In this document: piece by piece, positions 10,333 to 15,052 of the stretch
How positions within the stretch are numbered: position 1 is the stretch's first letter
How the letters are laid out: every line of letters starts with the position of its first letter
Source: Phascolarctobacterium faecium DSM 14760
GTDB lineage: Bacteria; Bacillota; Negativicutes; Acidaminococcales; Acidaminococcaceae
Length of the DNA: 64,000 nucleotides
Direction of reading: 5' to 3'
NCBI RefSeq assembly: GCF_003269275.1
Contig: NZ_QLTS01000002.1
Coordinates: 152,018 to 216,017, forward strand
Notes under the pieces: generated by a model
Told to the model about the DNA's origin: nothing
Seen by the model: the letters and a program-made list of their open reading frames with translations, nothing else
The model's database searches: none
Program-made: the position numbers and the translations under genes

Positions 10333-10372
10333 AAAACACTGCTGTGAACTTTAGTTCACAGCAGTGTTTTTC
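10333..10372. terminator. Long-stem terminator between convergent genes
   Basis: A 17-bp perfect stem (10333-10349, 10354-10370; core CACTGCTGTGAAC) with flanking A and T runs. Confidence 0.88.
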
Positions 10373-10418: not shown

Positions 10419-12941
10419 TTAGAACGTGAACCTTAGCCCGGCGTTGACGCTCCACTTTTTGTTGATGTCGCCGCTGAAGCCGCGTGTCACTTCACCGTAG
10501 AAGTTGCCCGTTTTGCTGATCCTGACGTTGCCGCCCAGACCCAGCTCAAACCATGTATCACCGTAGTCATTGTGCTTCGTTAATATATCGTTCGTGCCCC
10601 CTGCGTCCGAGGTCAAAACCAGGTCGCGCTCACCGGCAAATTCGTGCAGCAGGTCGGCTTTCAGGTAGATATCGCTGCCGTTTTCTATCTTCTGTCCCAT
10701 GACGAAGCCGATACGCCCGAGGGCGCTGTTCATGCCTTCGATACGGCCATTGGCCCCACGGTCGGTGGTGTAGTCGATGCTGCCCAGCCTGCCAAGTGTG
10801 AATTGGGCATTAGGCTCGATGAACAGCCCTCTCTCCAGATCAAAGCGTTTGCCGTATTCGACGCTGACGCTGCAGGCGTGCTGCTTGTATTCGGCTTTGT
10901 CAGGGTAGTCGCCGTAGGATTCCAAATCAGTCGATACGATGCCGTAACGGGCCGTGACATTGGTATAACTGCCGTTATCTGCCGTCCACACGCTGTACAG
11001 GCTGAAGCTTTTCAGTTTGTCTTTGCCGCTGCCCGGGCTGTAGCTGCCTGTGCCGTCGCCGTAGTCTACCGCCAGGCCGTAGATGCTTTTGGCGTTATCG
11101 GCTTTGTCGTAACCAAACTGGTACAGGTTGTAGCGGCCTTCGTAGTTATCGCCGCTGAACCTGCCCGCCTGCGTACGGGCCCAGATGCCGTCCGCGTGTT
11201 CACTGCCGTTGCCCAGTGCTCCCAGACGGCTGCGCAGGCTGTCGTTGGTGTTGCGCCACAGGGCGTAGCTGTTGTTGGCTGCCTCCAAAAGTACCCGGGT
11301 GTCGTTATTGGCAGTTTTGGCTACTTTTGTCAGATACCAGTTGTTGGCCGACTGCCCCAGCGTGTCGCCTTTGGCCAGGGTCGGGTCGATGTCCCACAGG
11401 CCGCCGGCATTGAATCCTTTGCCTTCAAAGGTCAGTTTGCCGCTGTTATCGGTGATCAACAGCTGTTTATGTTCACCTGTGACCTGGATGCCGTTCAGCT
11501 TGCTCAGGTCCCTGATCTGGACGTAGTGGATGCCGACGTCGGCATCTTTGATGATCAATTTATCACTGTTGCTGTCATTGTCGCTGCCAAGGTCGGTATC
11601 CATGATAAAGGTGTTGCCGCTGCCGCTCAGTTTGTCGATGGTCAGGGTCTCGTAGGCAGGAGGGATAAAGGCTCTGTTCCTGCCGAAGCTGTGGTCCGTC
11701 ATATCAATACTGGCGTTAGTGGCTGACAGGGTGCCGTTGATGGCAAAACTGCCGCCGCTGACTGCTGACAGTTCCAGACTGCCGCCTGTCATCGTGAGAC
11801 CGCTGACGATGCCGCCGCTGGCGAGCTGCATCATGCCGCCGCTAACTTCGGTTGCCAGGGCTGTGCCGCCGCTGGCGATATTCTGCGTGCCGCCGTTGAT
11901 GGTGGTATTGGCTGCTGTGCCGCCTGTCAAAACAGCCTGCGTGCCGCTATTCAGGGCTCTGACCGTGCCCACGCCGCCGGCAGAGACTGTCTGCGCACCG
12001 CCATTCATGCTGTTGGCGATACCTGTCTGCCCAGCTGTCAAATTCCAGCTATCGCCTGCCGTTACCGTCCCGACAATGCCAGTGCCGCCGCCCGAGATGA
12101 TCTGCTTTGCTGTAACGTGCTCGACATAGCCAGTGCCGCCGCTGGCTATTTGCTGCTGGCCGCCTAAAATCCCCAGGGCTGAACCCACGCCACCGCTGCC
12201 TATTTGCTGCGCACCGCCATTCATGGTGCTGACCGTACCGCTGCCGCCGCTGGAGATAGTCTGATTGCCGCCATTAATGGTGCTGACCGTGCCCACGCCG
12301 CCATTGGAGATACTCTGAAAGCCGTTGTTTATGGTACCGACTGTGCCCTTGCCGCCGCTGAAGATATTTTGCGAACCAAACCAGTTGTCTATAGTGCTGA
12401 CCGTACCACTGCCGCCGCTGAAGATATTCTGCAGGCCGATCTTCATCGTGCTGACTGTACCCTTACCGCCGCTGAAGATATACTGAAGGCCGCTGTTCAT
12501 GACGCTTACCGTACCCACGCCGCCGCTGGCGATATTCTGCTGGGCGCCGTTCATAGTGCTGACCGTACCGCTGCCGCCGATGGAGATATTCTGCGTGCCG
12601 CCGTTCATGGTACTGACCGTGCCGCTCTGCCCGGCAGTTATATTCTGGCCATCGCCGGAAACCATGGAAGCTACGCTGGCATTGCCGTCATACTCAGTTG
12701 CTTCGGCCCGGGCGAATATGGCCCGGTCCACCATGTCTGCCAGCTGCGGCAGCACGGCGTAGTCCAAAGGCTCGGCCTCGCTGCGTGCCGGCTGCGGCGC
12801 AGCAACCAGCTTCTGTTCTGCCCCGGCCAGCGCTGCCAGCGGAGCTACTGTGTTCACAAGGTTCATGCCCATGACTACTGTCGCCAGGATCTTTTCCGCT
12901 TTCTTTTTGTCCATACCTCTGCTTTTTCCGTTGTTTTTCAT
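10419..12941 (-). CDS. Autotransporter with strand-loop-strand repeat passenger (O-heptosylation target type)
   Basis: An 840-residue secreted surface protein. Residues 1-45 form an extended signal region (basic KKKAEK then a hydrophobic stretch ending near ALAG). About residues 95-395 are roughly sixteen repeats of ~19 residues, pattern GGxQNIxSGGxGTVSTMN, the strand-loop-strand type that forms a beta-helix and is modified with heptose in AIDA-I/TibA proteins. A linker follows, and the last ~280 residues form the outer-membrane beta-barrel ending in the aromatic GLRFTF. The ATG overlaps the TGA of the methyltransferase gene as ATGA, which fixes the start; a GTG at 12971 is rejected. A predicted adhesin or biofilm factor; it proves an outer membrane. 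Confidence 0.9.
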   Translation of the reverse strand: MKNNGKSRGMDKKKAEKILATVVMGMNLVNTVAPLAALAGAEQKLVAAPQPARSEAEPLDYAVLPQLADMVDRAIFARAEATEYDGNASVASMVSGDGQNITAGQSGTVSTMNGGTQNISIGGSGTVSTMNGAQQNIASGGVGTVSVMNSGLQYIFSGGKGTVSTMKIGLQNIFSGGSGTVSTIDNWFGSQNIFSGGKGTVGTINNGFQSISNGGVGTVSTINGGNQTISSGGSGTVSTMNGGAQQIGSGGVGSALGILGGQQQIASGGTGYVEHVTAKQIISGGGTGIVGTVTAGDSWNLTAGQTGIANSMNGGAQTVSAGGVGTVRALNSGTQAVLTGGTAANTTINGGTQNIASGGTALATEVSGGMMQLASGGIVSGLTMTGGSLELSAVSGGSFAINGTLSATNASIDMTDHSFGRNRAFIPPAYETLTIDKLSGSGNTFIMDTDLGSDNDSNSDKLIIKDADVGIHYVQIRDLSKLNGIQVTGEHKQLLITDNSGKLTFEGKGFNAGGLWDIDPTLAKGDTLGQSANNWYLTKVAKTANNDTRVLLEAANNSYALWRNTNDSLRSRLGALGNGSEHADGIWARTQAGRFSGDNYEGRYNLYQFGYDKADNAKSIYGLAVDYGDGTGSYSPGSGKDKLKSFSLYSVWTADNGSYTNVTARYGIVSTDLESYGDYPDKAEYKQHACSVSVEYGKRFDLERGLFIEPNAQFTLGRLGSIDYTTDRGANGRIEGMNSALGRIGFVMGQKIENGSDIYLKADLLHEFAGERDLVLTSDAGGTNDILTKHNDYGDTWFELGLGGNVRISKTGNFYGEVTRGFSGDINKKWSVNAGLRFTF
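11750..12660 (-). repeat. Array of ~57-bp coding repeats in the autotransporter passenger
   Basis: About sixteen imperfect units of roughly 57 bp, each encoding ~19 residues around the consensus SGGxGTVSTMNGGxQNI. Units nearest the N terminus are most alike; later ones diverge. Most units keep reading frame, so gain or loss of a unit would change passenger length without truncation. Confidence 0.8.
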
Positions 12942-13612
12942 TGGCCTGTCTTCTTTCCATATACTCGGCACCAGTGTTTAGTTACTACCGATATTTTCTC
13001 CGCAGCCAGTTCCAGTTCGCTAAGAGCTGTGAACTGCTGCTCCAAAAGTGCAGCCACGTCTGCCGATGCTTCCGGCTGTTCGTCGATGTAGAATTTTTTG
13101 CGGCCGTTTTCGCTGTCTATCACCGGCACTGCACGGTGTTTTAAATTCAGCACCAGCAGTTTATCGGCTACCGCCCGGCTCAGCAGCTTTATGTCATGGG
13201 CCGGGTCGAAGACGTGCTGCAGGACATAGACTGCTATGGCGCAGTCTGCCTTTAGTCCGCCACGCTCTGCCAGGGCGCAGAACATTTCGTAGGAGATGAC
13301 GCTGAAGCGGTCGCTGTTTACATACTCTGCCGCCATACGGCGCATGTCGGGCGAGATATCGACTCCCAGCACCCGGCAGTCGTACTGCTCAAGCAGGGCT
13401 TTGGACAGCCTGCCTATGCCGCAGCCAAAGTCCAACACTGTTTTGCCGTTTAAATCGCCCAGTCCACCGGCAAACAGAGTTTTCATGTATTCTGTTTCCC
13501 GCTCCCAACGCTGGCGGTAGTCACCGCCCTGCTGTTCTTCTGTCAGGATGATGTTTTTTGCCTGTTCCAGGTCCTGTACTTTGAACATGTCTTTGTAGTA
13601 GTAAAGGCTCAT
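12938..13612 (-). CDS. SAM-dependent methyltransferase within the autotransporter glycosylation cassette
   Basis: A 224-residue class I methyltransferase. Motif I is VLDFGCGIGRLSKAL (SAM binding), followed by the acidic ribose contact GVDISPDM and a CAIAVYVLQHV motif. The substrate is not evident. It is locked between the O-heptosyltransferase and the autotransporter by ATGA overlaps on both sides (13612-13609 and 12941-12938), implying coupled translation and a joint role, perhaps methylating the protein-linked heptose or the passenger itself. That role is inference; I do not know of a described methyltransferase at this position. No membrane segment; cytoplasmic. Confidence 0.85.
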   Translation of the reverse strand: MSLYYYKDMFKVQDLEQAKNIILTEEQQGGDYRQRWERETEYMKTLFAGGLGDLNGKTVLDFGCGIGRLSKALLEQYDCRVLGVDISPDMRRMAAEYVNSDRFSVISYEMFCALAERGGLKADCAIAVYVLQHVFDPAHDIKLLSRAVADKLLVLNLKHRAVPVIDSENGRKKFYIDEQPEASADVAALLEQQFTALSELELAAEKISVVTKHWCRVYGKKTGQ

Positions 13613-14970
13613 TTTTTTATCAGCTCCTGTTTCTTTTTTGTTGCCGCTGCTTTAGCTTTACCTTTGCCTGCTTCTGCTGCCAGCGGGTCCAGTTTGTGAT
13701 CTGCCATCAGCCGGTCGATGACTTTGTTTACCGCTTCCGGCGTGATGTAACGGCTGCATTCATACTGACGTTCTGTTCCTTTCAGCCGCGGGCACCATTC
13801 AAAGTCTTTATGGTCGAAGACTATCTGCGTATCGTTCCAGCAGCCGTTGCAGACGTGGTAGTTGATGACCCGATAGGGAGTGGCAAATTCGTTCAGCGGC
13901 AGGGTGAAGCCGCTGATGAGCACGACAGGTATGCCAACGCCGTTGGCCAGCCAGCTGAGGCCGCTGGACAGGCCGACAAAGAAGTCGGCCTGTGCCAAAA
14001 GGTCGATACGTTCCTGCAGGGGCAGCTTGCCGGTAAAGTCTTCCGCCCCGTAGGGGATGATGTTGAAGCGGCTGTTCATGCCGTAGACGTTTTCGCGGTC
14101 GATGCACAGTACCCGGTAGCCTTTGGCCTGCAGGTATTTGACGACGCCCAGCCAGCCGCCGCCGTTGTTCCAGTATTTGGCCTGGCTGCTGGACTGGGCG
14201 GCGATGCAGACGTAGGGTTCTTGGATCCTGCGCTTTTTGTCCTGGGGCAGCAGCTTTACGCTGAGCTGGGGCGGTTCGCCGCCTTCGTCCAGTCCCAGGA
14301 TCATGGCCGCGTTCTGGTGCAGGCCCCGGATGCGGAAGTCTGACGGCTGATGTACCCGGTCGTCGCAGGGGAAGAAGATGCCCATGTAGTAGCTGGCGTA
14401 CAGTCCTTCCGGCCGTTCTTCCGGCTGGACGAAGTTTATTTCCGGGTAGGACGGTTTGAACAGTTCGGCCAGTTCTGCGGCCATGGCGCAGTAAAGCTGG
14501 CAGCCGTGTTTTTGCCGGAAGGCTTCCGCGTAGGGGAACCAGGCCAGGATGTCTCCCAGTATCCCGACGGGGAATTTGAGCAGTACTTTTTTGCCGCGCA
14601 GGTCCAGGTCGTGGGCAAAGATCAGTTGATCTTTTTCGTATACTTCGATGCGAAAATCAACAAAATACTTTTTGCTGCTGGTGACCAAAACGCCGCTGGC
14701 AGGGGCGTCGTAGACGGTGAGGCAGGCTTTACGGTCGATGAATTTTACCCGGTATTCGCCCTGGGGCACGGTGACGCGCACGCCGTAGTTGAAGTCGAAC
14801 CTGATGCCTGCGCTGCCGCTTTCCTGCTGCACTTCGCCGGCGTCGAACATCATATAGGGTCTGGGCGCTGCAGGTGCAGGCTTTTCGATGCCGGCGGCCG
14901 GGGCCTTGCCCTGCCCTTTGCCCATTATGGCCGCAAGCTCTGCTTCGCCTGCTGATTTTATTTCTGTCAT
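13609..14970 (-). CDS. Autotransporter strand-loop-strand O-heptosyltransferase (BAHT/TibC type)
   Basis: A 453-residue glycosyltransferase of the bacterial autotransporter heptosyltransferase family, which moves heptose from ADP-heptose onto Ser of passenger repeats in the cytoplasm. An N-terminal beta domain (from RPYMMFDAGEVQQE) is followed by GT-B halves: LKFPVGILGDILAWFPYAEAF and the donor-site segment GLSSGLSWLANGVGIPVVLISG. The family's metal-binding Cys finger is present as CNGC, then two more Cys (WCPRL, YECSR). The start at 14970 is 8 bases after GGGAG; a GTG at 14976 is too close to it. First gene of a coupled three-gene cassette ending in the autotransporter. Confidence 0.88.
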   Translation of the reverse strand: MTEIKSAGEAELAAIMGKGQGKAPAAGIEKPAPAAPRPYMMFDAGEVQQESGSAGIRFDFNYGVRVTVPQGEYRVKFIDRKACLTVYDAPASGVLVTSSKKYFVDFRIEVYEKDQLIFAHDLDLRGKKVLLKFPVGILGDILAWFPYAEAFRQKHGCQLYCAMAAELAELFKPSYPEINFVQPEERPEGLYASYYMGIFFPCDDRVHQPSDFRIRGLHQNAAMILGLDEGGEPPQLSVKLLPQDKKRRIQEPYVCIAAQSSSQAKYWNNGGGWLGVVKYLQAKGYRVLCIDRENVYGMNSRFNIIPYGAEDFTGKLPLQERIDLLAQADFFVGLSSGLSWLANGVGIPVVLISGFTLPLNEFATPYRVINYHVCNGCWNDTQIVFDHKDFEWCPRLKGTERQYECSRYITPEAVNKVIDRLMADHKLDPLAAEAGKGKAKAAATKKKQELIKK

Positions 14971-15052
14971 AGTCACATCTCCCTTTTTCAGATAGATTCT
15001 TTTGTTTTCTTTTGTTTTTCTTTTGTTAAAACGGTGTTTTTATTCCCCAGAG

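Follow-up and report, generated by a model that had tools for sequence, protein, structure and literature searches.

A candidate accessory methyltransferase in an autotransporter O-heptosylation cassette of Phascolarctobacterium faecium

Introduction

Why should a methyltransferase gene lie between the two genes of a cassette that would make a heptosylated adhesin? The question arises in Phascolarctobacterium faecium DSM 14760, a gut bacterium in the family Acidaminococcaceae (Negativicutes), at positions 10419-14970 of a stretch of 64,000 nucleotides (contig NZ_QLTS01000002.1, positions 152,018 to 216,017), which is called here the window. Three consecutive genes on the minus strand encode, in this order, a TibC/AAH-type autotransporter O-heptosyltransferase (BAHT), a class I methyltransferase (MT) dependent on S-adenosylmethionine (SAM), and an AIDA-type autotransporter (AT). 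Cassettes that pair a BAHT with an AT are, of course, known and common; the unusual part is the MT. The cassette is therefore one of a known kind that carries an undescribed, recurrently recruited accessory methyltransferase. On balance, the best explanation is that the MT acts in the cytoplasm, where it would O-methylate the heptose of the passenger before the adhesin is secreted.

No description of a methyltransferase together with autotransporter heptosylation or a BAHT was found in the open-access literature; subscription papers lay mostly outside that search, so novelty is not proven. The product described for a BAHT is plain heptose, with no mention of a methyl group (PMC4358343).

Three genes in one coupled cassette

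The initial annotation of this DNA had seen three genes joined by ATGA overlaps: a TibC-type O-heptosyltransferase with a cysteine finger, a class I methyltransferase, and an autotransporter with strand-loop-strand repeats in its passenger. All of these elements are borne out. The stop of the BAHT overlaps the start of the MT in an ATGA at 13609-13612, and the stop of the MT overlaps the start of the AT in the same way at 12938-12941.

The BAHT (13609-14970 from its ATG, with an upstream GTG at 14976 also possible) scores 541.9 bits against TIGR04414 (hepto_Aah_TibC), where the curated cut-off is 200, and 70.5 bits against PF21129, the N-terminal beta-barrel domain of TibC, where the cut-off is 27; PF01075 is also over its cut-off. 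Its D142, K267, R323 and W342 correspond to the catalytic Asp-110 and the sugar-site Lys-230, Arg-286 and Trp-305 of TibC, and its C376, C379, C395 and C407 to the iron-finger Cys-339, 342, 358 and 370, at a constant offset of 37 (TibC residues from PMC4358343). Thr-226 of TibC is replaced by Ser-263, a conservative change common to the paralogues. By curated score and residues, it belongs fully to the TibC/AAH family. Because the position that governs donor stereoselectivity holds Ser, as in AAH, the enzyme may accept either epimer of ADP-heptose. A domain of the heptose kinase HldE is over its cut-off in the genome, and a supply of ADP-heptose is therefore plausible.

The AT (10419-12941 from its ATG; 840 amino acids ending in Phe) scores 108.6 bits against the barrel family PF03797 (cut-off 26, E 5.6e-31), which covers residues 586-818 (10488-11186), and 179.6 bits against TIGR01414, also over cut-off. 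A listed GTG at 12971 is an alternative start, which would lengthen the overlap with the MT to 34 bases. The passenger matches the strand-loop-strand repeat TIGR04415 in two stretches (46.3 bits, cut-off 30); about 14 units of 17-20 amino acids, the likely targets of heptosylation, lie at 11781-12653, and a tandem array in the DNA (12183-12620) falls within them. The N-terminus is basic and then hydrophobic by eye, as in the paralogues. With such family scores, a chance match is excluded for both the BAHT and the AT.

The MT (12938-13612; 224 amino acids) matches 11 Pfam families, among which Methyltransf_23, 25, 12 and 11 (PF13489, PF13649, PF08242 and PF08241) are over cut-off and FkbM (PF05050) is absent. 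It has no evident signal peptide. Its SAM motif, DFGCGIGR, includes D61, G63, G65 and G67, which are invariant in its family, as are D85 and H133; the mark of that family is an N-terminal RWxxET motif. The structure model (pLDDT 86.4, pTM 0.85) is a plain class I fold, and Foldseek gives probability 1.00 for that fold. Orthology with UbiG or BioC was rejected, as scores fell far under the cut-offs. The small-molecule and sugar methyltransferases RebM, AtmM, NodS, EvdMO1 and UbiG have in common with the MT the class I fold (Foldseek E-values near 1e-9), the SAM motif and a conserved His (in VLQH), but at 13-20% identity none is an orthologue, and it is RWxxET that marks the family of the MT.

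The nearest described systems, AAH/AIDA-I and TibC/TibA of E. coli, have a BAHT of this family in which the catalytic and iron-finger residues are the same, directly linked to an AIDA-type AT with strand-loop-strand repeats; plasmid cassettes of E. coli and Pantoea hold the same BAHT-AT pair. The difference is that neither the AAH/AIDA-I nor the TibC/TibA cassette has a methyltransferase.

Downstream of the cassette, an inverted repeat of 17 pairs that has a T-run on each strand (10333-10370), between the AT and a convergent cupin gene, is likely a terminator that the two share.

Three cassettes in one genome

The genome (2.3 Mb in 21 contigs) holds three BAHT genes, and thus its own comparison. 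On contig C14 (locus L041), a BAHT with 80% identity to the one in the window has its stop overlapped by an ATGA, exactly as in the MT-bearing cassette. What follows is a relic (L041:7513-7620): 31 of 36 bases match the start of the MT gene, where the best match elsewhere in the locus reaches 20-21, and a stop comes after 17 codons, followed by the AT. The MT was therefore formerly present there, and its body was deleted. On contig C1 (L042), the BAHT runs directly into its AT with no trace of an MT. Since the MT is lost or absent while BAHT and AT stay, it is, as read from these loci, an accessory modifier rather than a core component of the cassette.

The AT on C1 (L042:5322-8101) is split over two frames near L042:6359-6479, where no long homopolymer was seen; the cause may be a frameshift, a switch or a mistake in the assembly.

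Methyltransferases beside heptosyltransferases in other bacteria

If the MT is accessory, is its place in the cassette more than an accident of one genome? Of the 381 Negativicutes genomes scanned, 118 encode a BAHT, and the MT (E < 1e-8) occurs in this genome only, bar one general methyltransferase. A match in G065 (L010; 35% over 108 amino acids) and another on a Monoglobus plasmid (L101) lack the RWxxET motif and were set aside as general methyltransferases. The single MT sequence found no match in 84,980 species genomes, and scans of plasmids, phages and viruses with it gave only weak general matches. Its relatives surfaced by walking along BAHT loci, and afterwards through alignments.

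A scan of species genomes for BAHT led to a locus in Burkholderiales (L134) where an RWxxET methyltransferase stands between an AT with repeats and a BAHT, in the order AT-MT-BAHT. A search of 300 Burkholderiales genomes gave a second cassette (L198) of the same order, with MT and BAHT overlapping. In a tree of 96 BAHTs, the three that have an MT fall in three separate supported clades amid relatives without one, and not one of 200 bootstrap trees groups their MTs in a single clade.

The RWxxET family is rare. It occurs in roughly 0.6% of the 1,000 or so genomes sampled: 5 of 300 Burkholderiales and 2 of 337 alphaproteobacteria (each count including the centre genome), and 1 of 381 Negativicutes. 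Chance adjacency to a BAHT is therefore very unlikely: by a rough estimate that assumes 3,000 genes per genome, about 0.0004 such neighbours are expected in 98 loci, and the survey, with L198 not counted, has two.

Nor is the RWxxET family alone. Besides the three RWxxET methyltransferases, a Pfam scan of 69 same-strand neighbours of BAHTs found FkbM in three loci (L047, L095, L146) and Methyltransf_24 in a fourth (L147). Leaving out L198, which was found through its MT, at least 6 of 68 BAHT neighbours are methyltransferases where about one is expected (P ~0.00006-0.002, on a base rate of 1-2% that is assumed, not measured). Genes in this survey were called crudely, as the longest open frames, and neighbours shorter than about 150 amino acids were mostly outside the Pfam scan, so that linked genes may be missed. 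Sugars and small molecules are common substrates of FkbM enzymes. Those beside a BAHT belong to a different protein family from the MT but hold the same position in the locus, and therefore probably have the same role; the papers found do not describe FkbM as part of BAHT cassettes.

This distribution points to repeated, independent recruitment of methyltransferases to BAHT cassettes, and the proposal that the MT works together with the heptosylation cassette is well supported by comparison. The three-gene grouping that the initial annotation proposed to look for in other genomes returns in the two Burkholderiales cassettes, but its order varies and paralogues lack the MT; a fixed three-gene system is rejected, since both gene order and the presence of the MT vary.

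The same survey turned up other arrangements. Divergent BAHT relatives (L048, L049, L072, L096, L099) lie amid housekeeping genes (gyrA, ruvA/ruvB/ruvC, yebC) with no adjoining AT; when FkbM genes were sought in the divergent loci of Selenomonadaceae, the neighbours were housekeeping genes (YebC, RuvB, Sir2). Tandem pairs of BAHTs are common in Selenomonadales and Acidaminococcaceae (L050, L052, L065, L111 and others), where the second copies form clades of their own. In Rhodospirillales (L147:4465-10588), a BAHT stands between the Methyltransf_24 gene and ABC secretion genes, which encode an HlyD-like protein and one whose start is C39-like, so a type I system may secrete the substrate of this BAHT. 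On a Gluconobacter plasmid (L216:5905-9619) the partner of the BAHT is annotated as a Hint-domain protein, not an AT, and on an E. coli plasmid (L218:2803-9966) BAHT-AT pairs stand in tandem, with one BAHT protein accession occurring twice.

Relatives of the methyltransferase away from heptosyltransferases

The RWxxET family is not tied to BAHT, and its most frequent company is glycosylation genes. In viral contigs L204-L207, a TPR protein of 451 amino acids overlaps a relative of the MT by an ATGA; in another (L208), a TPR protein of 440 amino acids is one gene away. By eye, the C-terminal halves of these TPR proteins resemble GT-B glycosyltransferases, for which Pfam gave no confirmation. 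In L209, the relative of the MT is followed by two proteins, one matching GT9 weakly and the other of family DUF5672. Another relative (L197) has ABC secretion genes and a glycosyltransferase-like gene in its neighbourhood, and another (L215) has apparent sugar-biosynthesis genes there. Some relatives have no such company and stand alone.

The viral relatives with TPR or GT9-like/DUF5672 neighbours adjoin virion-like genes (L204:3637-5645, L208:2962-5618, L209:4965-7781); perhaps they and their neighbours glycosylate and methylate virion proteins. A different context recurs in two Burkholderiales genomes, where a relative of the MT adjoins recR (L195:2331-3608, L199:7558-9085).

What the methyltransferase might modify

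How, then, might the cassette work? The three genes form one translationally coupled unit for what would be a modified adhesin. In the cytoplasm, the BAHT would attach heptose (192 Da) from ADP-heptose to Ser or Thr in the repeats of the passenger. The MT, made in step with the BAHT, would then use SAM to methylate a hydroxyl of the heptose already linked to the protein (+14 Da, for a total of 206 Da), and the methylated passenger would exit by way of Sec and its own barrel. The methyl group would serve as an optional cap, borne by one adhesin but by neither of its paralogues.

That the MT acts on the glycoprotein, that its acceptor is the sugar, and not the protein or nucleotide sugar, and that its chemistry is O-methylation are steps that we infer. 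O-methylation of a sugar is preferred for three reasons: the repeats are rich in Ser and Thr and have hardly any Lys, Arg, Asp, Glu or His; relatives of the MT adjoin glycosyltransferase-like genes where there is no AT; and the methyltransferases recruited beside BAHTs include FkbM enzymes. A methylated O-glycan on a surface protein has a precedent. VioM (241 amino acids, similar in size to the MT), likewise encoded with genes for glycosylation of a surface protein, methylates the terminal sugar of the flagellin glycan of P. syringae, and its deletion removes 14 Da per glycan (PMC3927599). It differs, of course, in its substrate, which is viosamine in a flagellin trisaccharide, where for the MT heptose on an autotransporter is proposed.

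Several observations weigh against O-methylated heptose. The structural matches of the MT include sugar methyltransferases, but also UbiG, NNMT and cyclopropane synthase, so that the fold does not separate classes of substrate. No sugar-methyltransferase family reaches its cut-off for the MT; TIGR04371, a putative one (NanM subfamily), gives 20.8 bits where 44 are needed. Five relatives of the MT (L186, L188, L195, L196, L199) have no glycosyltransferase nearby. The tree of MTs is poorly resolved, with 2 of 13 branches supported, and was used only for the absence of a single cassette clade. The C14 cassette lost its MT yet kept BAHT and AT intact, which makes the MT dispensable there. Of the earlier claim that tight coupling implies a shared product, the partnership gains from the independent recruitment of methyltransferases beside BAHTs, but the product itself cannot be read from the sequence, which would suit a methylated heptose, a methylated donor or a methylated protein.

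The alternative that survives best, although we think it unlikely, is that the MT came into the operon as a mobile passenger gene and now either has its function elsewhere or is being lost. The relic on C14 and the MT-less cassette on C1 would suit such a gene, as would the varied contexts of the RWxxET family, phages included. So would the unusual base composition of the cassette: its G+C is 0.57 in the BAHT, 0.53 in the MT and 0.58 in the AT (0.63-0.72 at third positions), against 0.48 for the whole window, and the two paralogous cassettes lie below it at 0.42-0.47. A gene adrift would not, however, be expected to stay full-length with the family-invariant residues kept, to be coupled by ATGA on both sides, or to have been placed repeatedly and independently beside BAHTs in another phylum.

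Methylation of the passenger protein, at a side chain or a terminus, is less probable again. The MT is coupled as tightly to the AT as to the BAHT, and neither its sequence nor its fold gives an acceptor specificity. In the repeats, however, 340 residues include 83 Ser/Thr but only 4 Lys, 3 Arg, 5 Asp, 3 Glu, 2 His and no Cys, and so there is little target for a protein methyltransferase. The paralogues without an MT have passengers of the same repeat type; relatives of the MT adjoin glycosyltransferase-like genes where no autotransporter is present; and it is unrelated methyltransferases, FkbM among them, that have been recruited to the same place.

Least probable, if by little, is methylation of ADP-heptose or an earlier intermediate before transfer by the BAHT, for although the modified viosamine of P. 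syringae is methylated at the dTDP-sugar in the proposed pathway (PMC3927599) and the fold of the MT resembles small-molecule methyltransferases, a methylated ADP-heptose would also reach the lipopolysaccharide heptosyltransferases and the two other BAHTs, the sugar site of the BAHT keeps the residues that hold unmodified heptose, and the phage relatives stand with glycosyltransferase-like genes where no adjoining sugar-nucleotide genes were seen.

Implications

Beyond this locus, it is tentatively possible that adhesins of several phyla bear O-methylated heptose, made by at least three independently recruited families (RWxxET, FkbM and Methyltransf_24), and that phages, too, use the RWxxET family, in glycosylating and methylating their own virion proteins. 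If so, methyl caps would be a movable addition to protein O-glycosylation in general. With the cap, the part of the adhesin that is most exposed would differ in its hydrogen bonding, its stability and how it is recognized. One genome offers a built-in comparison among a cassette with the MT, one with its relic and one without it, and, because recruitment has been repeated in other phyla, the answer would reach past a single species.

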